Part shown: positions 1 through 26,570 of the stretch, one piece after another
How positions within the stretch are numbered: the first letter of the stretch is position 1
Layout: each line of letters opens with the position of its first letter
Virus record (IMG/VR): IMGVR_UViG_3300033141_004120
Span: 9,708-44,607 of that record
Reading direction: 5' to 3' (one strand)
From: a virus
Length of the DNA: 34,900 nt
Position numbers and translations under genes: made by a program
The notes under the pieces: model-generated
What the model saw: only the letters and a program-made list of their open reading frames with translations
Told to the model about the DNA's origin: nothing
The model's database searches: none

Positions 1-3000
1 GCTCGTGCAGATGGTCATTCAGGATATTCCTAATCCAATAGCTCCTGAAGACAGGCGCAATGTCTCCTCCCCATGTAAAGCCAGGAGGTGCCTTTTCCTT
101 CGGCCTCCCAGTCCGTGAAAGATGCTTGGCGCGGATAGCCGCCCCCTCTTTCACAGCAGCTTCAACAATGTTGAGGACAGAAAGATCCTTGCCTGCACGC
201 CTCGCATAGGCACCGATAATCTCAGTAAGACTCAGGTCAGAAGGATCAATAACACCCTCAACAACAAGATCTCGAATGGTGATTGGCATACCAGTTTGCT
301 TTGCCCGCTTCCTTCGCTTTTTAACAAGCAGGCCGAAGCGATGGCCGAAGCCAGCTGGATCGTTTACAGCTTTATCAACAAACCACAATGAATATGGAAT
401 ATGGACATATTCTAAATGCTTAAGAGATTCAAGTGTAGCTCTCATATTGGCAGCTTCCAACTCCTTACCTTTAGCCTCAGCTGCTGCTAATCGCTTCTGC
501 ACCTCCATCTTAACATTTTCTACAAGTCCTCCAGCTTGGAGGAGGCCATGTCCTTGATACTTTTTGAGGAAGAAGTCCCTAATATCCTCCTGCCAAATCT
601 TTCTAGCAGGCTCAAGCTTTGTCTGTTGCTCTTTAGTAAGCCGCCTCCAAGCTCTTTCATCCTCTAATACAACAGGTCCGAGCTGATCGAGTTCATAGAA
701 ACTCCTGAGATCAGGTAGGGTACCCCTCATCCTCTTAATAGCCTGCGCAGCATGATCATGCCATCTTTCCCTTAAACTAGGCGCAACCTTGAATGCCCAT
801 CCGATAAGAGGAAGCTTAGCCCGCTTCCATATAGCTTCAACATCAACTCTATCTACTACCCTCTGCCAGCCTGTTCTGCTAAGTCTATCAGCTGTCTCTA
901 TCTCATTCTTTTTAAGTGTTTTAAATAATGTAATACCTGTTGTATTAAGATGATTCTCAAGCTCAGGAGTTATATCAAAATAATGCACATTAGGAATGGA
1001 GGATTTCCCAAGCCTCATCTTTATCATAAGCTCACGGAGTCTAGCAGCTTTAGCTTGGTCAAGGTGATCGATATACCCTTGAAGTGAGAGACTTGGCTCT
1101 AGTTCTACAAAGGTTCCCTCCATCGTTTGATTTACTTTAATCCAAGCTTCTATAAACTCTATTAGCTCTTTGCGCTCTTTCTGTGTAAAGTTGGTAAGAG
1201 TCCTAATAGACTGTGCAGTGAAATCCTGGACACGCATAACTCGAACTATATCAGCTAGATTAGCAAGCGCCGGTTCTGTGCTTCCTTCCTTAATCTGTAC
1301 CCCGAACTTCTTCAGCCATTTCTTAGCATAGAATAGAATCTTTCTATCATACAGATTTTCAAAGAATTCCAAACGCGGCATCGATTTACCACTAGGCTCT
1401 TTTTGCATTCGCTCCCAAATACGATCAAGCTGTGCCTGAGTAAAAGGTGAGACTGTGCCAGCTTCTTGTCTAATAGTCTTTTGTATAGTTTCCTTATCGC
1501 TAAGTTTGTCTCGAACAGCTACTATGTGAGACCTCTCTTCTATTTCACTTGGTTTTGTCAAGGGGCTGAACTTCATCATAAATGTCCCATCAGGCTGTTT
1601 CGTCCACTCAATGTATGGCGTCCCCCATCGTTCAGCTTGCTCTCGGCCTGTAGTCCAAGCCATCCGCCGCATACCTCGGTGAACAGTATGCAATAACAAC
1701 CTCCTGAACATCAGCTCATGCCAAGTATGTTTATAAGGGAAATCTGGTACTGTACTTCTAAGCTTATCCCTTTCAATACTAATATCAGCCAGCTGCCTTT
1801 GCACAGCCCTACTCTCATGCTCGAATTGAGGTCGTGATATTTCATTATTCACACGTGCAACCGCAAGTGCCTCTTGTTTGTCACGAAGCCTCGCCTGCTC
1901 TTCGTTCAACGCATTAAGTGCCGCTACTGTATTCTCGTCATGTATACCATATTTTATTAAAGCGCTTGCAAAGTCGCTTTGTATCTCCTCTATATAGATA
2001 CTAGGAACCATATCCTCTTCAATTGGCCTAGTGTCAAAGCGGGCATGAACAATAGCATTTTCAATATCTTCAAAGTGACTCCTTATAAATGGCTCCTCGA
2101 ACTCTCCAATTTCAGGAATCGAGAGAATGAGCTCTCTGTAATCATCTCCACCTTCTGGCATATACTGAGAATACTTGGGTGCTTTCAGTACCAGCTTCTC
2201 CCTCCAGAACTCATCAACTGGAATTTCTCGATCAGCTGTCATAACTTCTTGAATAGAGAAGCTGTTTTCCGATAGAGCCTTCTCGACGTCAGTACGAGTA
2301 ACGACCTCCTTGCTTTCAAGCAGTTCAGTAATGCCCATCTCTTCCATCTCAAGCGGCCTTACCCCAGCCTTCACGAGCATACCAGCTAACTGCTTAGACT
2401 GAATTTGCTTCCCCTTAAACTTCTCAGCCAACACCTGTCTAAGCTTGCTATAATAAATAGGCACCCGCTCTTTCTTAAACAACCTATAGGATGAAGGAAG
2501 AGGCTGCGAAGATGGGGGAGGAGGACCAAGGGTTTCCGCCGGGAGATTAGCGGAAATGCCCCCACCTTCAGCAGCCCAAAGCTTATCGAAGAACTCAGTC
2601 GTTTGTGGAGTTGCGCTAATATACTGTCTAACAGCTCCCCACATATCGAGCATCCATTCCTTCATCTTATCGAAGAACCCCTGGAGCTCTGGTTTAGGAG
2701 CCTTACCCGTCCGCATATATGTTTCATGCTGATCTGCTACATATTCATAAAAGCCTCTCCAATCCTCAAGTTGCTCCAATCCCTTCTTTTTGCCGTATCT
2801 CTTCAGTGTTTGGGATCGATAGTGATCCTTAAGAGGCTCGAAGCGCTCAGGAAATAATAGATGATAGGCATGGGTCATTTCATGGAGCATCACACCTGTA
2901 TCAGCACTATTGAATCCTTTGATAAAAACCTTGCCTGCTTTATCAAGGTTGGTTACTCCGAGTATAAAATGCTGCCCTTTGCTAAGGGTTGCTTGCTCTT

Positions 3001-4189
3001 CAGATGTACCGCGCTCTGCCCTAATCCATTGTGCTACTTCATCTGCAGGTCTTCCTTCATTCTTTGCTATTAAGCTAATCATGGCAGGAACAAGCACATC
3101 AGCTTGCTCATCATATTCATGTGCCCAAGCAGTTTTAATCTGTTCGGTCAGATCAAGGACAGCTCCCTCCCTAACGGGAAGTAGAGGCTTTATACTACTT
3201 GTAGGACCTTTGCTGATAGGAATTGGAGGCTTCTTTTCTTCAAGCGCTTCCTTTGCTTCTCGAAGCTTTACTACCCTCTCTTTGATATCCTCGACCTGAA
3301 CAGCCTTGGAAATATCTAAGGCTTGCTGAGAAAAATCAGTGCCTTCCGCCTCCTCTACCATACCAACAGTCTGAGCAAGCCCACCCCCAACAGCACCTAC
3401 AGTAAATCCTACAGCAGCTGGTCTTATACCCTCTTTAAGTACCTGCTTGAATTCAGCCCCGCTTTTATACTCTGGTTTTAGCTTGCTAACATACCTTGAT
3501 ATTACATCAGAAGCTACGAACTGTCCATACTCTTGAGCACTCTCCATAACAGCCTCACTTAAAGCGGCTGATATAATCTTCCCTCCTTTGCTTGCCATTC
3601 GAAGCGCTTTAATAGGCGGCAGCGCTTCAGTAATACCGAGGCCAGTTTTAGCAAGGATATGAGTCCAAGCATTCTTTGCTTCAGGACCAAGGGCATCGAG
3701 CTCCATAAGAGCTTCACTTGCTCCTATCCCCATACCAACACCAATGGCAGCCCCAGTCTGAGCTCTTGCTGCTCTCTTAGCAAGTTGCTTAGCAGTAAGC
3801 TTCGCTGCAGCTTTACCACCCATCGCAAGCTTGCCAACAGCTGCGCTCGGAATTACAAGAGATCCAAATTGGCCGAGGCCGCTAGCAACCTGTCCAGTAA
3901 AAGACTCTTCGACTTCTCTGCTGGCAGGAAGAGCAGCATGGACATCCTTGGTAAACTCTGCTGTTATATTATAAGGGTCGCCGGTCGCAGCCCTTAATAG
4001 GATATCAAGCCCAGATGCTATAGGAGATACCGCCCCTGTAATAGCACCTCGGCCAAACATATCGATATGACTGCGAGCCCATCCTGGCTCAGGCCGCTCA
4101 GCTTGAAATAGATCATGGGCTGCTGGCTTGGCTTCATAGTTAGCCTTTAATGCATTAAACGTAGCCAGCTTTGTAGGATCAACCACCAT
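1..4189 (-). CDS. Giant virion/ejection protein with zincin (HExxH) motif, C-terminus beyond window
   Basis: The frame is open from the ATG at 4189 through the left edge, so at least 1396 codons are present and the stop is missing. The start lies 2 nt beyond the stop of the upstream gene. The N-terminal ~280 residues have several Ala/Gly-rich hydrophobic stretches (around residues 42-70, 140-160 and 255-275), as in phage proteins ejected into the cell envelope. Residues 436-440 read HEMTH, a zinc-metalloprotease motif, followed about 50-60 residues later by EYVADQHE and then a F-x-K-x-x-x-W-M-x-x-M-W segment. That order is typical of large polyvalent phage proteins. Residues ~755-800 look like coiled coil. 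Being last in the virion operon fits the T7 gp16 position. The role in DNA ejection is inferred; the HExxH is seen directly. Confidence 0.85.
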   Translation of the reverse strand, partial: MVVDPTKLATFNALKANYEAKPAAHDLFQAERPEPGWARSHIDMFGRGAITGAVSPIASGLDILLRAATGDPYNITAEFTKDVHAALPASREVEESFTGQVASGLGQFGSLVIPSAAVGKLAMGGKAAAKLTAKQLAKRAARAQTGAAIGVGMGIGASEALMELDALGPEAKNAWTHILAKTGLGITEALPPIKALRMASKGGKIISAALSEAVMESAQEYGQFVASDVISRYVSKLKPEYKSGAEFKQVLKEGIRPAAVGFTVGAVGGGLAQTVGMVEEAEGTDFSQQALDISKAVQVEDIKERVVKLREAKEALEEKKPPIPISKGPTSSIKPLLPVREGAVLDLTEQIKTAWAHEYDEQADVLVPAMISLIAKNEGRPADEVAQWIRAERGTSEEQATLSKGQHFILGVTNLDKAGKVFIKGFNSADTGVMLHEMTHAYHLLFPERFEPLKDHYRSQTLKRYGKKKGLEQLEDWRGFYEYVADQHETYMRTGKAPKPELQGFFDKMKEWMLDMWGAVRQYISATPQTTEFFDKLWAAEGGGISANLPAETLGPPPPSSQPLPSSYRLFKKERVPIYYSKLRQVLAEKFKGKQIQSKQLAGMLVKAGVRPLEMEEMGITELLESKEVVTRTDVEKALSENSFSIQEVMTADREIPVDEFWREKLVLKAPKYSQYMPEGGDDYRELILSIPEIGEFEEPFIRSHFEDIENAIVHARFDTRPIEEDMVPSIYIEEIQSDFASALIKYGIHDENTVAALNALNEEQARLRDKQEALAVARVNNEISRPQFEHESRAVQRQLADISIERDKLRSTVPDFPYKHTWHELMFRRLLLHTVHRGMRRMAWTTGREQAERWGTPYIEWTKQPDGTFMMKFSPLTKPSEIEERSHIVAVRDKLSDKETIQKTIRQEAGTVSPFTQAQLDRIWERMQKEPSGKSMPRLEFFENLYDRKILFYAKKWLKKFGVQIKEGSTEPALANLADIVRVMRVQDFTAQSIRTLTNFTQKERKELIEFIEAWIKVNQTMEGTFVELEPSLSLQGYIDHLDQAKAARLRELMIKMRLGKSSIPNVHYFDITPELENHLNTTGITLFKTLKKNEIETADRLSRTGWQRVVDRVDVEAIWKRAKLPLIGWAFKVAPSLRERWHDHAAQAIKRMRGTLPDLRSFYELDQLGPVVLEDERAWRRLTKEQQTKLEPARKIWQEDIRDFFLKKYQGHGLLQAGGLVENVKMEVQKRLAAAEAKGKELEAANMRATLESLKHLEYVHIPYSLWFVDKAVNDPAGFGHRFGLLVKKRRKRAKQTGMPITIRDLVVEGVIDPSDLSLTEIIGAYARRAGKDLSVLNIVEAAVKEGAAIRAKHLSRTGRPKEKAPPGFTWGGDIAPVFRSYWIRNILNDHLHE

Positions 4190-4191
4190 TA

Positions 4192-5628
4192 TTACCTACC
4201 TCTGCTTTGCTGTTGTGTTGCGATCTCAATTGCCCTCTCTAGTGTCAATCCTTGAGCTTCAGCAATGGCCTTAATATCAGCAAGCGTGAAGCCTGCAGGA
4301 TTAGCATGTAAGGCTCTATCATAATAAACATCAGCATAGCCGGCCACAGCTCTCCGACCAGCCTCACTAAGACTGGGGTGATTCATGCCCGCTTCCATTG
4401 TAGCTCCTGTTGAAGCGAAGCTCTCCTGCTCAGTAAATATACCAAGCTTACCTGTATAAGCTTTGCCAGCTTGCTGGAGTAAGTCCGCGATTACCACCTT
4501 ATCAGTATCTGTAAGCGCCTGAGTATCGATCTCTGCAGTAGCTTTATTGCTGAGGGCTTCAAAATGTTTTATCTGTGCTTCTTTATATCGAGTGTTTAAG
4601 TCCAACATCTCCTCTCTAAGGCTTTTGTTATACTCATACTCTTCCCTCGCACGTCTAGCCTGCGCTTCGCTAAGTCCAAGTCTGCGCTCTTCTCTGCTCT
4701 CCTTTCGCGCTCCGAGAAGTGCCTGCGCCTCTGACAGCCGCAGCTGCCCAGCGAGTCGTTCTTTCTCGAATCCTCGACGTTGAAGAGCATCTACTTCTTC
4801 TGGAGCCAAGCCTACCATATCGGCAGGGCTAAGTGGGACTCCAGCATCAACCTTGCGGGCTGCTCTAGCATAGATAGTACTCTTAGCAAACTGAGAGCCA
4901 ACAGCGCCAATCCGCTCCCCAGGCGTACCCTCTCCAGACATAGCCATACCAAGTTCACTAATAAACTTCCATACAGCAGGATTGAGTAAAGGATTCTGCT
5001 GCGGCTCTCCACCCTGCCCAGGTATGCCTTGGGCTTGCTTAATCGCCGCTTCATTACTCAATGCGGCAGTTGGTTGTGATACAGGAGCTTGCCCCTGCTG
5101 TATAGGCTGACCTTGCTGCATTCCAGGCTGATTTTGCATAGCCATCCGAGCAAGAGTGGCAGCGGTCGTAGCAGCCCCGCCAGCTAGCCAGGGAAGTCCG
5201 GGCCTAGCTTCTTCAGTCGTACCCTCTGCCTTGGTCGCTTGGGTCGGAGCTGCCTTAGTTAGAGTAGAAGGTTTCGGCTGTGGTGCTGACACGGTCTTTG
5301 GCCGCCGACCTATTACAGCTTGAGCTTCGTCGCTGATTACCTTCTCTTGTTGCGGTGAAAATGCTTGTCCCTGCGACTCCATTAAATGCATTGTGGCTGG
5401 TGGAATTATAATTCTTGGGAGCTCAGGGGGCCATTTCACATAACCGGGTGTGCTATACAACGGTCTTTGATATGGGGGTTCATAGCCCTCATAACTTGGA
5501 TATCTTGGAGGCTTCTCAGGAGGCCATCCTCCATAACTAGGTGTGCCATACAACGACCCCTGATTAGGAGGCTCATAACCTCTATAACTTCGATAATGTA
5601 GTGGCTTCCCAGGAGGTAATGTTCTCAT
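4192..5628 (-). CDS. Probable internal virion/ejection protein with Pro-Tyr N-terminal repeats
   Basis: 478 residues, with a good ribosome site (TTAGGAGA) before the ATG. Residues 7-38 and 39-70 are two copies of a 32-residue Pro/Tyr-rich unit (YEPPxQxxLYxTPxY). They are followed by a low-complexity Pro/Thr/Ala linker, a short Ala/Gly-rich hydrophobic patch (145-162) and a Gln-rich stretch. Residues ~270-355 are Arg/Glu-rich and likely a long helix or coiled coil. The C-terminus ends in a compact helical region. No enzyme motif is visible. The position between two other ejection-type proteins and the composition (disorder, hydrophobic patch, long helices) suggest an internal core protein, analogous to T7 gp15. 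That role is inferred from context only. Confidence 0.75.
   Translation of the reverse strand: MRTLPPGKPLHYRSYRGYEPPNQGSLYGTPSYGGWPPEKPPRYPSYEGYEPPYQRPLYSTPGYVKWPPELPRIIIPPATMHLMESQGQAFSPQQEKVISDEAQAVIGRRPKTVSAPQPKPSTLTKAAPTQATKAEGTTEEARPGLPWLAGGAATTAATLARMAMQNQPGMQQGQPIQQGQAPVSQPTAALSNEAAIKQAQGIPGQGGEPQQNPLLNPAVWKFISELGMAMSGEGTPGERIGAVGSQFAKSTIYARAARKVDAGVPLSPADMVGLAPEEVDALQRRGFEKERLAGQLRLSEAQALLGARKESREERRLGLSEAQARRAREEYEYNKSLREEMLDLNTRYKEAQIKHFEALSNKATAEIDTQALTDTDKVVIADLLQQAGKAYTGKLGIFTEQESFASTGATMEAGMNHPSLSEAGRRAVAGYADVYYDRALHANPAGFTLADIKAIAEAQGLTLERAIEIATQQQSRGR
5419..5610 (-). repeat. Two tandem 96-bp coding repeats (Pro/Tyr-rich)
   Basis: The DNA encoding residues 7-70 of the 478-residue virion protein is two in-frame 96-bp units (5515-5610 and 5419-5514). 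They share YRGYEPP/YEGYEPP, LYGTPSY/LYSTPGY and WPPE. They look like a recent tandem duplication inside the gene. Confidence 0.8.
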
Positions 5629-5647
5629 TATATTCTCCTAACTAAAG

Positions 5648-5676
5648 CTAGATTGTTACATTTTGTAAACATCTAT
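5648..5676 (+). repeat. 29-bp palindrome, copy 1
   Basis: This is the most divergent of six copies. The invariant core TTACATTTTGTAAACA is kept, but the left arm reads CTAGATTG instead of CTAGCTGT. It lies between two virion genes, and its CTA supplies the TAG stop of the upstream gene (stop at 5673-5675). The TTT centre is on the plus strand. Confidence 0.85.
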
Positions 5677-7136
5677 GCGTTTGATACAGCACCGAGAATG
5701 GCTCCAATACCAAGAATAGCCCAACCAGTAGGTCCAAGGCTTGCTGCCACCGCTGGTGCGGTTGCCGTAGCTGCAGTAGCTGGTGTCATTCCAATACCGG
5801 TCCCTGCTATAAAGGCTCCTGCAGCGCCAAGCCCTGATACAGCACCGCCAAGCACACTCCCTCGCTTATTCATTTCACTAGCAGATGGATTTCCCTGTGT
5901 AGAGCCTCCAGGCGCTCCAATGGCATTAGCCAGAAACACCATAAGTTCAAGATCAAATAGAGCATCCTTATACGCATAATGCGTGTCGAGGTCGGTTTGC
6001 TCATTTGTAAGAACAGAATTATATTTAACAGTATTCTGATAGATATCCAATAGCCCAACTGTCCTGCCAATCTTCATATCGACAGTCTGCATAATTCTCT
6101 GTGTGAAGTTGTCGATGAGAGCAATTCGCCTATCTTCCTTCTGAAGTTCAAGAGAAGCTCTAAATTTAGCAACCTCATCTAATCTTGCCTTCTCTATAAT
6201 GCTAAGCCCTATAACAAAGGCGCTACCTGCACAGGCATTAGCCCCCACCATACTTCCAGCAAAGCGATTGATAGCCTGATTTGTTTGATCCTCAAGTGAG
6301 AGCTCATACGCATCAGCTGCTGTATCAATATAATCACTTCCAAGAATATTGTCTCCATCAGTAAGCGATTGAGCTCTGGCTACCCAATCCTCCACTGACT
6401 CAAGGGTTGTTCCCTCATCAATATTGTCAATAAGAGTAGCAAGCGGTGTCGCAACAGCATGCCCGCTCATGGCACCAAGCTGAGCAAGATCTGTTGATGG
6501 ATCATGTGCTACTGCTGCAGTATAAGGACTACTACCTAATGTATTAAGGGTAACATTATCAATCCAGCCATTGAAGACGCCTCCTGCATCAACCTCAAAA
6601 GCCAAAAAAAGCGGCGCATCACTAGAAGGAGATTCAATTACCTCAGAAAAGAACCCATTGGTACTTTGTAATGTTCCAGCGCTTGATCCTATAAAAGGCT
6701 GAAGTGTCCCTAGGGTCATACCACCTATTTCATAAGAGAGATAGTATTTAACACCATGTTCAAGTGCTATAACACCAGCAGGCTGGACAAGCGGCTTTGT
6801 AGAAGTTCCGCCATGCTTCGCTACATGGTTATCAGCAGGGCCTATACTCTCAGGGTTCCATCCTGTGGTTGCTGCTTCCCATCCAATCCATCCCCATGTA
6901 TACTTAGGTGGCCCAGGCGCTTCAAAGCCGCCGTTCAATACCATATTTGGCCCAAGGAAGGTAGTAGCTCGATCAGCCGCTCCGTCCATAATATTCAGGA
7001 GCTCATAATGATAATTCTCCATATAGGTTGGAAAGCTAGTACGGCCCGATCCACCACCACCTCCTCCGCCAAGATTAAAAGCAAGTGCAGCTGATGCAAC
7101 ATGACATTTTTTATTCTGCAGCAGTACGAGCCTCAC
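5673..7136 (-). CDS. Probable internal virion protein with inserted carbohydrate-binding-like domain
   Basis: 487 residues from a GTG start that has a near-perfect GGAGGT six bases upstream, 2 nt after the previous stop. After a Gly-run (residues 23-29), residues ~65-200 form a beta-sandwich-like module that begins MVLNGGFE and ends GWIDNVTL, the signature of CBM4/9 or galactose-binding-like domains in phage virion proteins. Residues 200-420 are mostly helical. Residues ~430-487 are Gly/Ala-rich and hydrophobic (IAGTGIG, GWAILGIGAILGA), like the membrane-inserting tails of ejection proteins. The place after the nozzle genes matches T7 gp14-type proteins. The stop codon lies inside palindrome copy 1. 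Function is inferred from context and composition. Confidence 0.75.
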   Translation of the reverse strand: MRLVLLQNKKCHVASAALAFNLGGGGGGGSGRTSFPTYMENYHYELLNIMDGAADRATTFLGPNMVLNGGFEAPGPPKYTWGWIGWEAATTGWNPESIGPADNHVAKHGGTSTKPLVQPAGVIALEHGVKYYLSYEIGGMTLGTLQPFIGSSAGTLQSTNGFFSEVIESPSSDAPLFLAFEVDAGGVFNGWIDNVTLNTLGSSPYTAAVAHDPSTDLAQLGAMSGHAVATPLATLIDNIDEGTTLESVEDWVARAQSLTDGDNILGSDYIDTAADAYELSLEDQTNQAINRFAGSMVGANACAGSAFVIGLSIIEKARLDEVAKFRASLELQKEDRRIALIDNFTQRIMQTVDMKIGRTVGLLDIYQNTVKYNSVLTNEQTDLDTHYAYKDALFDLELMVFLANAIGAPGGSTQGNPSASEMNKRGSVLGGAVSGLGAAGAFIAGTGIGMTPATAATATAPAVAASLGPTGWAILGIGAILGAVSNA

Positions 7137-7576: not shown

Positions 7577-9840
7577 TAGATCAAGCTCCCTACACTCCTC
7601 TTTCCTGTATCCTTCCACTCAATAGCAATGCTATCGATCTTAGCATCCGTCCCAAGCAATCCTCTTACTCCAATTCTAAACTCAAGCCCAGTAGCAACCA
7701 CCACAGCAGCTCCGAAGTCATTGCAATCTGTCCAATCATTAGATGTGAAGCTGTCACCTCCTGCATCCCTCCATTGGATCTGGACCTGCAGCTCAGTGAT
7801 ATTCTCCACAGAAAGCTGGACCGATTGAATAGTCTTGACGTCGAATCGTCTGCCCATATTAAAGGTATCAGTAACAAAACTGAATCTATCTAATGAGCCA
7901 GTATATTCAAGGGGCGCTACAAGTGCATCATCAATCGTAACAATACTTGTTGGTAATGCTCTTAACCCCGCTAATGCTCCCTCCGAGAGCACATAGCCAG
8001 CTCCTGATTCGCAGATATAAAAATCATTCCGCTGTGGGTCATGACTTACTATACCATTCGCTCCTACAACAGGCTGAATAAACTCTTTATAATCAACTCG
8101 ATTCAGCCTCAGCTCTGCATCAATAACCCAAACATTACCCTTGGCATCTACAAACACATGATTTCGCTCATCTCCATTCACCATGCTTCGATTGCCAAGC
8201 CCTGTCCTTAACAAGCTTTTCACTCTAAAGCCCTTCTCATGAGGGACCATGACAGCAATTCCATCAGCTCCATACACAATCACCTGCCCACCAAGCTGTT
8301 TAACAGCATAAATCTCTCCTCTAAATGGCATCTGGATAAATCCAATATCCCGATTCTTAATATCAGTAATCAATCTAGCCTTCACATTATCAAAGGCCGT
8401 GCTGCTCGGAATTTGGAATAGAGCCATCTCATTCCCAAATGGCCTATAGATATCCCCACCAAGTGGCCTACTCCACATAACCCAATTAGCTCCAATAGCC
8501 ATATCAAGATAAGTGAATTGCTCAGCATCGCTATACTTCTGCCAGATATCCCAGATCTCAGCCCAATCATCTCCATCAAAATAACTAGCGGCATAGAAGT
8601 TAGCAAGCAATAACCTATCCCCAAACACACATCCTGTCTTGATCCGCACCGTATCCTCAACTACAACCTTGCCACTCGCAGTTGATGGAATCTTATAGAC
8701 CATACAAGTTCCGTTAAACATAAACCATGAATTTTGAAACTCTGCAAAGTGCCAAGGAGCCTCCCCTGTAATCGCCTTCGTATCTCCTGTATTCCTAGCA
8801 TCGTAAGTCGTAATGCTAGTGTGTGGCCCTGTAAGACTACTCTCATCTACATCCAACAGCCTAGTTGATTCTGCCATTAACGTAGTATTCTCACCTCGGA
8901 AAAGTTGAGGGAATGGCCAATCAGTAGAAAGCACTCGTTTGACAATAATATCATCAACATCACCTATCCAATCAGCACTAGGTGTAATGCTAAGGACAGT
9001 GTTCGTTGCGCAAGTGATATACTGTGTATAAGTAGCATTGAGCCCAATTGAAGCTCCAGTTCCTGTACCTAAAGCAATGACAATACCACCAGACTCATTG
9101 CCATTTACTGTGACTGTAACCTCATATAATGCTCCTACAACCAATTCAATATATGGAAAAGCTTGCTCAGCCGTCAACGTACTTCCTGCACTATGCGATA
9201 GTTTACCAGCTGCTATTGCCCATCCTGTATTGAGCGTCCAGCCTGTTGAAGCCGCGAAGTCTCCGTTAGTGACGAGGTCTGGACCGAGCGAAAATTTCTT
9301 ACAGGAGACGTCATCCACGGTGAATGTAGCTCCTTCAACCCCCTGACCCCAGAAGCAAAGAACCCCCGCTTGGTCAAAGGGATATTCGCCAACTCCGCCA
9401 CCAGCCTGAATGTATTGGGTGTAAGTTCCATCTGCCGTGACCTCTGTACCTGAATCCCCTCCCATCTTGGGAGTACAAGTTGCGCCACCCCCCAGCGCCG
9501 ATACTGTAAAGGTAAGCATATAAAGCCCATCTTCGACAGCTCCTATGTCTTGGTAAATACCACCGCCCTCTCCAATTTCAGATGGAGCAGTAAAAACCAC
9601 GTTGTTGGCGGCATAGGCCCAACAGGCCCCCAAGGTCCACCCATCAGCATTTCCTATAAATGTCCCATTGGTCACAAGTTCAGGCCAGAACTCTGTAATA
9701 GGCGTATGCTCAGCTAGGCCAAATTCACACGCCCTCATGCCATCAAGCTCAGTAAGCACTTGAATGTTCTTGGCATGCTCCTTCTTAGTCCTAAGCCCTT
9801 TTATCAAGCCTTCCTGAAATTCAATTACTTGCGTTCTCAT
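7576..9840 (-). CDS. Nozzle-like tail protein with two inserted carbohydrate-binding-like domains
   Basis: 754 residues from the ATG at 9840, the second of two adjacent ATGs, with AGGAGG seven bases upstream. An open frame continues to 9921 but overlaps the upstream gene. Residues 1-50 match the N-terminus of the neighbouring 505-residue protein. Residues ~54-183 and ~188-303 are two beta-sandwich-like modules, each opening with ELVTNG or DLVTNG and closing with FTVDDV or GDVDDI. Residues 308-754 (447 residues, from WPFPQLFRG) are paralogous to the body of the 505-residue protein. Repeated short beta blocks such as RNHVFVDAKGNVWVI suggest a propeller-like fold. The position after the tail adaptor matches T7 gp12 (nozzle). 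The added domains may bind host surface glycans; this is inferred. Confidence 0.75.
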   Translation of the reverse strand: MRTQVIEFQEGLIKGLRTKKEHAKNIQVLTELDGMRACEFGLAEHTPITEFWPELVTNGTFIGNADGWTLGACWAYAANNVVFTAPSEIGEGGGIYQDIGAVEDGLYMLTFTVSALGGGATCTPKMGGDSGTEVTADGTYTQYIQAGGGVGEYPFDQAGVLCFWGQGVEGATFTVDDVSCKKFSLGPDLVTNGDFAASTGWTLNTGWAIAAGKLSHSAGSTLTAEQAFPYIELVVGALYEVTVTVNGNESGGIVIALGTGTGASIGLNATYTQYITCATNTVLSITPSADWIGDVDDIIVKRVLSTDWPFPQLFRGENTTLMAESTRLLDVDESSLTGPHTSITTYDARNTGDTKAITGEAPWHFAEFQNSWFMFNGTCMVYKIPSTASGKVVVEDTVRIKTGCVFGDRLLLANFYAASYFDGDDWAEIWDIWQKYSDAEQFTYLDMAIGANWVMWSRPLGGDIYRPFGNEMALFQIPSSTAFDNVKARLITDIKNRDIGFIQMPFRGEIYAVKQLGGQVIVYGADGIAVMVPHEKGFRVKSLLRTGLGNRSMVNGDERNHVFVDAKGNVWVIDAELRLNRVDYKEFIQPVVGANGIVSHDPQRNDFYICESGAGYVLSEGALAGLRALPTSIVTIDDALVAPLEYTGSLDRFSFVTDTFNMGRRFDVKTIQSVQLSVENITELQVQIQWRDAGGDSFTSNDWTDCNDFGAAVVVATGLEFRIGVRGLLGTDAKIDSIAIEWKDTGKRSVGSLI

Positions 9841-24588: not shown

Positions 24589-24618
24589 ACTATACCATAG
24601 TTGGGGGGCTGAAGTCAA
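24589..24618 (-). promoter_or_regulatory. Leftward sigma70-like promoter of the TerS/late operon
   Basis: Reading leftwards: TTGACT (24618-24613), an 18-bp spacer, TATAGT (24594-24589). The start would lie about 30 nt before the TerS GTG. An upstream palindrome (24635-24649) suggests regulation. Matches 5/6 and 5/6 to the consensus. Confidence 0.7.
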
Positions 24619-24634
24619 GGTGGAACCTTTACAC

Positions 24635-24649
24635 CAGTTAAACCAACTG
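24635..24649. promoter_or_regulatory. Operator-like palindrome upstream of the TerS promoter
   Basis: CAGTT-AAACC-AACTG: five-base arms around a five-base centre, 16 bp beyond the -35 box. A close match (AAGTTG-AAC-CAACTT) lies at 29027-29041 upstream of another promoter, and a half-site GGTTCAACTT lies at 24695-24704. Both full sites are followed by TTCCACCTT at the -35 box. Confidence 0.45.
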
Positions 24650-24723
24650 TTTATAATTTCCCCATACAAAATGGCTTGATATGTGGTGTATCTCGGTTCA
24701 ACTTACAAAAACTTATCCATAAT

Positions 24724-24759
24724 GGGAAAGGTCTAGGTAACATCTTACCTCTTTTTCCC
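24724..24759 (+). other. Long imperfect stem-loop in the divergence region
   Basis: GGGAAA...AGGTAA-CATC-TTACCT...TTTCCC: an inner six-base stem with a four-base loop and an outer six-base stem. A T-run follows the inner stem on the plus strand (CTTTTT), so it may be a weak rightward terminator, or a leader hairpin of the leftward transcript. Confidence 0.4.
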
Positions 24760-24813
24760 ATCCCCCCATCCTCCCCCTTATGTTCTAGAGGATGGTGTTG
24801 GCACAGTTCTTGC

Positions 24814-24841
24814 TATATATAGCGCGTGATTATATTGTCAA
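24814..24841 (-). promoter_or_regulatory. Second leftward sigma70-like promoter
   Basis: Reading leftwards: TTGACA (24841-24836), 16-bp spacer, TATATA (24819-24814). It lies directly beside the first 27-bp direct repeat and would read toward TerS. Perfect -35; five of six at -10. Alternative -10 registers exist in the TATATATAG run. Confidence 0.55.
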
Positions 24842-24842
24842 G

Positions 24843-25031
24843 GCTAAGTCCAACAGAATCAACAGGTTACGTGGTGTACCATTTGGTACTGTACCATTTG
24901 GTACGGTTCTAAAGCCAACAGAATCAACAGGTTAGCCGCTTTGTAGCTGTTTTGTTACTTTTTTGTTGTGTACCAAAAGGTACAACTACAAAAAATGTAG
25001 TACGGCTAAGCCTAACAATATCAACAGGTTA
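24843..25031 (+). repeat. Three 27-bp direct repeats (iteron-like)
   Basis: Units at 24843-24869, 24908-24934 and 25005-25031. Unit pattern: GCTAAGYCYAACA (first part) then RATATCAACAGGTTA-type second part; ATCAACAGGTTA is invariant. Spacing is 65 and 97 bp. The stretch between divergent operons (24670-25161) has no gene. Repeated sites of this kind are typical of initiator- or repressor-binding regions. Not CRISPR: the spacers are unequal and carry palindromes. Confidence 0.75.
24876..24983. promoter_or_regulatory. Three GTACC-N4-GGTAC palindromes
   Basis: Copies at 24876-24889 and 24891-24904 (GTACCATTTGGTAC, one base apart) and at 24970-24983 (GTACCAAAAGGTAC). Identical five-base arms with A/T-rich centres, interleaved with the 27-bp repeats. 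The pair looks like a cooperative operator; a bound repressor or initiator is inferred. Confidence 0.65.
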
Positions 25032-25103
25032 GCGATTGGCACAGGATTTGCGATTAAACAAACTGTTCCCGACAGGATCGAGGAACGGAAAGGAGGAAAC
25101 TGT

Positions 25104-25112
25104 ATGGCCTAA
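25104..25112 (+). other. Two-codon minigene (ATG GCC TAA) with perfect ribosome site
   Basis: AGGAGG at 25091-25096 and a seven-base spacer before ATG-GCC-TAA. It lies 50 nt upstream of the first rightward gene. It may be chance, or a leader that affects downstream translation, as in phage minigenes. No other support. Confidence 0.25.
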
Positions 25113-25161
25113 GCATCCTGCTGGCCATTCCCAAACCAGATTGAGTTAAGGAGGATGGCTA

Positions 25162-25812: not shown

Positions 25813-26007
25813 ATGCCAAACAGTATAATGCGTGTCGAGCGAGCTATAGTGCTCCTCGAAGCAAAAGGCACACTTGAAGGTAAGTGTATCGCAAGGCTAG
25901 CGAGAACCGCCTTAGAGGATGGTCTGCCTATCGCTAAGGTTGACAGAATGCTGCAGCTTGCTACTGGCTTATGTGTGAAAAGGATTAAACGAGCCTGGGA
26001 ACCGTAA
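25813..26007 (+). CDS. Small unknown basic protein
   Basis: 64 residues with AAGGAGGAG upstream. Helical: RVERAIVLLEAKGTLEGKCIARLARTALEDGLPIAKVDRMLQLATGLCVKRIKRAWEP. The spacing of hydrophobics could fit a small three-helix DNA-binding domain, but no HTH family can be named. Its stop codon is the first unit of the GTAAGCC repeats of the large inverted repeat. Confidence 0.55.
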   Translation: MPNSIMRVERAIVLLEAKGTLEGKCIARLARTALEDGLPIAKVDRMLQLATGLCVKRIKRAWEP

Positions 26008-26260
26008 GCCGTGTAAGCCCCGTAAGCCCTGCGAGGTCGTTTTACCGCAAACCCGGTATATATCTAGGGGAGCGGTGCATGATGGAGCCTGTGCTTGTTT
26101 CATCTCCTTAAAAAAAATATATGATAATAAAGAGAACAGAATAGAGAGAGGATGGAGGATAATAAGGATGGATAGATGGTAATGAGTATGTATGCTAGAT
26201 ATATACCCAAACCGCGGTAAAAGTGCCCTAGGGGGCTTACAGGGCTTACGGGGCTTACAC
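26004..26260. repeat. Large interrupted inverted repeat, origin candidate
   Basis: Left arm ~26011-26067, right arm ~26195-26260. The arms share a perfect 21-bp block (GTGTAAGCCCCGTAAGCC plus CTG), TTTTACCGC and GGTATATATCTAG. GTAAGCC occurs every 9 bases, three times on the left (from 26004) and at least three inverted on the right. The 127-nt centre is A+T-rich, with an A-run (26110-26117) and a purine-rich plus strand. It contains no gene. Arms plus an A+T-rich middle and short repeats resemble phage/plasmid replication origins. Function is inferred. Confidence 0.6.
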
Positions 26261-26303: not shown

Positions 26304-26570
26304 GTGTTTGAACTCTATGAGGAAGGAAGGATCAGAATTTCAACCGTCAGGGTTACTGACTTCCACCCGCCATTTCAAACAGCTGTCCGTCACCCAGCTT
26401 ATGGGAGAGGTGAAATGATTATTACTGAACTCTATCCTACTATAGAAGCGGCTAGGGCAGGACATCAAAAATGGATAGAGCTGATGACAGCTGATGAATT
26501 GCCGGATCAATTAACAGATATCAGTGCAGCTGAAATCGGCTGGAGGCACTATAAGAAGGAAGAAGGGTAA
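26304..26570 (+). CDS. Small unknown protein, paralogue of the next gene
   Basis: 88 residues from a GTG start with AGGGAG upstream. Core PFQTAVRHPAYGRGEMIITELYPTIEAARAGHQKWIELMTADELPDQLTDIS is shared with the next gene in order and spacing, so the two are a tandem duplicate. Beta strands then helix; no catalytic motif, Cys or membrane segment. Function unknown. Confidence 0.65.
   Translation: MFELYEEGRIRISTVRVTDFHPPFQTAVRHPAYGRGEMIITELYPTIEAARAGHQKWIELMTADELPDQLTDISAAEIGWRHYKKEEG

Follow-up and report, generated by a model that had tools for sequence, protein, structure and literature searches.

The DNA analysed here (the window) is a stretch of 34,900 nucleotides, positions 9708–44607 of the 44,607-bp virus record IMGVR_UViG_3300033141_004120 in IMG/VR. 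At 26004–26258 it contains a 255-bp element that we consider likely to be the replication origin of this phage. As judged from its sequence, the origin would be bipartite, with inverted iterons arranged around a DNA-unwinding element. The argument draws on the computed anatomy and spacing of the element, the position of the weakest duplex, a layout that is kept while the sequence changes, the inward polarity of the iterons, and the co-occurrence of the element with a replication module. The original prediction had suspected a replication origin at this place and proposed a conservation check; the layout has now been found in about two dozen relatives, which supports the suspicion.

The element is composed of two 64-nt arms and a 127-nt centre, and its parts are as follows (window coordinates).

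26004–26067, plus strand: left arm of the inverted repeat (inverted-repeat scan)
26004–26028, plus strand: left iterons GTAAGCC at 26004, 26013, and 26022, inward-pointing (9-bp period)
26040–26048, plus strand: left TTTTACCGC block (sequence)
26055–26067, plus strand: left GGTATATATCTAG block (sequence)
26068–26194, no strand: centre between the arms, candidate DNA-unwinding element (weakest 70-bp duplex, starting at 26107)
26110–26117, plus strand: A8 run on the sense strand of the early genes (sequence)
26118–26194, plus strand: purine-rich tract after the A-run, 75% A+G (base count)
26195–26258, minus strand: right arm of the inverted repeat (inverted-repeat scan)
26195–26207, minus strand: right GGTATATATCTAG block (sequence)
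26214–26222, minus strand: right TTTTACCGC block (sequence)
26234–26258, minus strand: right iterons GTAAGCC at 26234, 26243, and 26252, inward-pointing (9-bp period)

The arms pair without gaps at 73% complementarity and have the same order from outside to inside, i.e., three GTAAGCC iterons, TTTTACCGC, six bases mismatched between the arms, and GGTATATATCTAG. The large inverted repeat with GTAAGCC at every nine bases, described earlier, is thus borne out with three iterons in each arm, and the element holds six of the nine GTAAGCC copies found in the window. Exact matches to GTATATATCTAG occur only at 26056 (plus strand) and 26195 (minus strand). The 21-bp identical block was also recovered, as a perfect pair (26011–26031 and 26240–26260) that represents the same iteron array one 9-bp repeat out of register. 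The description of the centre as A+T- and purine-rich holds for its right two thirds (26110–26194), where the A8 run is followed by the 77-nt tract, and not for the remainder. Similarly, the element is intergenic for most of its length; it is not strictly gene-free, as had been claimed, because the first iteron holds the stop codon (26005–26007) of a 64-aa open reading frame (ORF; 25813–26007). The next listed ORF on the same strand starts at 26304.

This is the sole structure of such size in the window. Its score as a spaced inverted repeat is 26.6, compared with best scores of 11.8–16.0 in 20 shuffled windows. In the gapped scan it scores 32.5; in control DNA (41,003 windows from 1.25 Mb of phage DNA surrounding the polymerase genes at 80 related loci), the highest score was 21.0 and the 99.9th percentile was 18. 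The ungapped scan of the same control DNA yielded no spaced repeats with a score of at least 18.

Relatives were collected by portal and polymerase searches (Desulfofustis phage OP947158, Vibrio phage MF497422, Microcystis phage Mel-JY34, Caulobacter phage Kuura, MW202489, and vir526), and a DNA polymerase alignment scan provided 80 IMG/VR loci; the portal is present in 32 of the 34 records searched. The scan for the element covered the complete relatives and, for the IMG/VR records, the region upstream of the portal. About two dozen relatives from IMG/VR and GenBank have the same layout in the same place, between the virion and early operons, with different sequences. The shared design comprises inward-pointing iterons of 7–9 bp, then an A-run and a purine tract on the early-sense strand. 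The letters vary from phage to phage, while the two arms within one phage agree. Examples of iterons are TGCATTTTN, present three times in vir526, TGTAACC-like units in L129, TTGTAGG in L117, TTGTCTCAA-like units in L139, and CGTAACCA units in L141; the iteron core among relatives is often [T/C]GTA[A/G].

The arm periodicity is significant in most genomes, the period being mostly 7–9 bp. The core [T/C]GTA[A/G] points inward in 87 cases and outward in 12 (p = 3e-15, the related genomes not being independent). Seventeen elements carry an A-run of at least 8 nt on the early-sense strand and 2 carry one in reverse, and the purine fraction is 0.65 after the A-run vs. 0.43 before it (16 elements compared). 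Since inverted-repeat score was part of how the elements were chosen, these polarity tests are not wholly independent of that choice.

The conservation also bears on the explanation that the element is a transposon-like insertion (a miniature inverted-repeat transposable element) or a chance inverted repeat. Terminal inverted arms around a non-coding centre are indeed what such an insertion would leave, but the element is present in a single copy in the record, no obvious target duplication is seen in its flanks, and the same-position elements of relatives have unrelated sequences. We therefore regard this explanation as highly improbable.

The weakest 70-bp duplex of the whole 44.6-kb record starts at 26107, inside the centre, which by nearest-neighbour energies has the low stability of the unwinding element in iteron-type origins. 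For 14 of the 21 elements tested, there is no weaker locus in the DNA examined, i.e., in the whole record for named phages and in a 4–19-kb piece for IMG/VR relatives. Clear exceptions, with a weaker locus elsewhere, are vir526 (L026), L134, and L144. Kuura and the Jamesmcgillvirus phages PaP2 and PaMx41 contain weaker versions of the element, which the inverted-repeat scan does not single out. In Kuura, GGGCAGTT-like repeats enclose an A12 run that is the weakest point (43110), and AAGGTAGG-like repeats are situated on either side of the weakest point in PaP2 and PaMx41. The first candidate repeat in Kuura, at 35206–35344, was replaced by this A12/iteron region (~43.0–43.25 kb), the weakest duplex of that genome.

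Several other candidates were set aside. Fifteen other viral contigs contain triple repeats of GTAAGCC that are unrelated to the element, with flanks of mostly repetitive coding sequence. The inverted repeat of L125 belongs to a collagen-like repeat sequence and that of L110 has a long GC-rich spacer, and both were considered unrelated; the element of L115 is doubtful, as it has no A-run. An exact-pattern search of viral contigs found no DNA-level relatives, blastn against phages gave one match at chance level, and the first protein search, with Sak4, found no relatives. In vir526, a second, smaller inverted TGCAT repeat surrounds a very A+T-rich stretch beside the main element (L026, 825–1000).

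Comparison of gene content suggests that the element tracks the DUF3987/polymerase module rather than the terminase/portal module, as judged from a modest number of independent cases. MW202489 and vir526 contain the element together with DUF3987 and a related PolA-family polymerase fused to a uracil-DNA-glycosylase (UDG) domain, and their portal and terminase have no BLASTP similarity to those of this phage. Roseobacter phage CRP-810 combines a related portal with a prim-pol replication protein and lacks the element. The element is also absent from Serbin, which has a UDG-PolA polymerase and an SNF2-type helicase, and from Almagne and MW202455, which have a related polymerase and no DUF3987 match by tblastn. 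DUF3987-like proteins are also encoded by Tiera and EBPR podovirus 3, which have no clear element.

These cases are relevant to a second explanation, a packaging or concatemer-processing site, at which the terminase or a processing factor would bind the arms and virion ends would form at the centre, perhaps via a hairpin. In the Kuura record, an exact terminal repeat of 606 bp, reported from PhageTerm (PMC9959647), begins at 43208, a position that falls between the A-run and the right arm of the Kuura element. The records of PaP2, PaMx41, and 119X all end no more than about 15 bp apart inside the equivalent region, and of 34 IMG/VR contigs, 5 terminate within or close to the element, compared with about 0.45 expected. 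However, the record ends may have been copied from PaP2, and homopolymers that break assembly can also produce contig ends. Iterons around the weakest duplex are origin-like and not typical of pac or cos anatomy. Moreover, the element is absent from CRP-810 despite the related portal, and because it follows the replication module across unrelated terminases, a replication role is favoured. On balance we find a packaging site unlikely as the explanation of the element. A packaging site and an origin could nevertheless coexist here, and the terminal-repeat start inside the Kuura element and the record ends in the equivalent region would mean either an adjacent origin and terminus in this group or a role of the element in forming ends. 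Secondary origins and DNA ends are adjacent in T7.

A third explanation is a feature of transcription or RNA. The element could form a large RNA hairpin that serves as a terminator or processing site, or it could be a cluster of operators through which the early genes are controlled. The element is situated in the early region, just before early genes, and the RNA-folding check proposed originally gave a very stable predicted fold on either strand (z-scores of −6.8 and −8.7). A selected transcript hairpin should have mismatches that favour G-U pairs on the strand of the transcript, yet over 24 elements the wobble-compatible arm mismatches number 94 for the early-sense strand and 73 for the other (p = 0.12). 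Transversions exceed both wobble classes together, as they would without selection for pairing, and the region contains no terminator-like site and no Rfam match. Since the arm mismatches show no significant wobble-pair bias, the stable fold is probably incidental to an inverted arrangement of protein-binding sites, and we judge an RNA or transcriptional role to be decidedly unlikely.

If the element is an origin, a phage initiator would bind the three 9-bp iterons of each arm and probably also TTTTACCGC and TATATATCTAG. By assembling on the two arrays that face each other, it would strain and melt the intervening A-run and A+T/purine tract in the cell. The two facing complexes may then load the replicative helicase on both strands, the DUF3987 protein, predicted to be MCM-like, being the candidate, and the PolA-family polymerase with the UDG domain would copy outward, presumably in both directions.

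The assignment of the helicase comes from structure prediction for the DUF3987 relative L084, which has no sequence match in PDB. Its AlphaFold model (mean predicted local distance difference test score, pLDDT, of 91.9) has the H-E-H-H-E-E pattern of a winged helix at the C-terminus, and its best Foldseek matches in PDB are MCM helicases (E-values from 1e-9 to 1e-6, template-modelling score about 0.45 by query). The predicted fold of DUF3987 thus resembles that of an MCM helicase, with a winged helix at the C-terminus. Independently, DUF3987 ATPases have been predicted to be a replicative-helicase family, and the winged helices of related primases have been suggested to recognise origins (PMC5862659). 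As the initiator of the element, DUF3987 is only a candidate.

Several observations weigh against the assignment of the element as an origin. The DUF3987 winged helix, tried as the iteron reader, shows no specific co-variation, with iteron similarity following it no more closely than the remainder of DUF3987 (partial Mantel p = 0.52), and no known initiator family was found among the early proteins scanned. The start of the Kuura terminal repeat lies inside its element. A third or more of the related IMG/VR records have no clear element in the fetched DNA, some being partial, and the list of elements, drawn from related genomes, was partly picked by inverted-repeat score. Finally, of the skew change expected in the original prediction, a cumulative GC-skew minimum was found ~1.4 kb from the element, but the sign of the skew follows gene direction, and hence GC skew is not independent evidence for an origin.

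Opposite-oriented initiator sites flank an A+T-rich unwinding element in herpes simplex oriS/oriL and in archaeal origins flanked by origin recognition boxes (ORB). The likeness to these origins is one of layout only, since both the initiators and the sequences are unrelated. The origin of phage lambda is comparable in that it is phage-encoded, lies in the early region, and has repeated initiator sites by an A+T-rich melting region (PMC5043065). The lambda iterons, however, are 19 bp long, are themselves inverted repeats, and lie within the O gene, next to an A+T region of 40 bp, whereas here iterons of 7–9 bp face each other on both sides in non-coding DNA. The element is intergenic and no O-family match was found among the proteins scanned, which does not fit the lambda type. 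In RepA_N-type origins (pSK41, pTZ2162, and PLE of Vibrio cholerae), inverted short repeats of 8–9 bp likewise converge on a poly-A tract (PMC7145576), but in those the individual iterons contain the inversion, whereas here the inversion spans the entire predicted origin; the proteins scanned gave no Pfam match to RepA_N. With iteron plasmids (RK2, P1, F) the element shares tandem short iterons and an A+T-rich element (PMC5043065), and its three 9-bp repeats per arm would qualify as the tandem short repeats of an iteron-type origin; it differs from them in its facing arrays and 9-bp spacing.

In the surrounding genome, leftward virion genes (terminase large subunit, portal, capsid region) begin at about 24.7 kb and rightward early genes at 25.16 kb. 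The early side encodes a PD-(D/E)XK exonuclease and a Sak4-like protein; the PolA polymerase with an N-terminal UDG domain and the DUF3987 protein are encoded outside the window. Searches of the window for tRNA genes and Rfam families found neither. The divergent region between the virion and early genes (24600–25160) contains a strong promoter-like site at 24628 (TTTACA-18-TATAAT). A 29-bp near-palindrome of the CTAGCTGTTTACATTTTGTAAACATCTAG type occurs in eight copies, mostly intergenic, at 5648, 14132, 23179, 25709, 27687, and 30443 of the window and at 1247 and 8322 of the record; it resembles a dispersed site of the operator, hairpin, or stoperator type. In L004, the UDG-fused PolA polymerase (1380–3608) ends early (IHDAI) compared with two relatives, possibly due to a frameshift, a natural end, or a sequencing error, and a small phage protein with the Pfam RyR domain is encoded at 5315–5821.

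We found no paper in the open-access literature searched that describes this inverted-iteron element and no published origin for this phage group. A tentative extension of the origin assignment, which we hold to be rather doubtful, is that the element represents a new class of origins, where each of the facing iteron arrays loads an MCM-like (DUF3987) helicase to form a head-to-head pair around the A-run. Such a class would be the phage equivalent, in minimal form, of origins at which two facing helicases are loaded; its iteron sequence would diverge from phage to phage and its geometry would be kept. If the element is indeed an origin, it would provide one for a widespread group that includes culturable phages of Caulobacter, Vibrio, and Microcystis, with a weaker form in Pseudomonas phages (Jamesmcgillvirus). 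As the origin layout would be tied to an MCM-like DUF3987 helicase, the loading of facing helicases could be studied in a simple phage system. The sequence-free signature of facing iterons, a polarised A-run, and the weakest duplex may be used for scanning uncultured phages.
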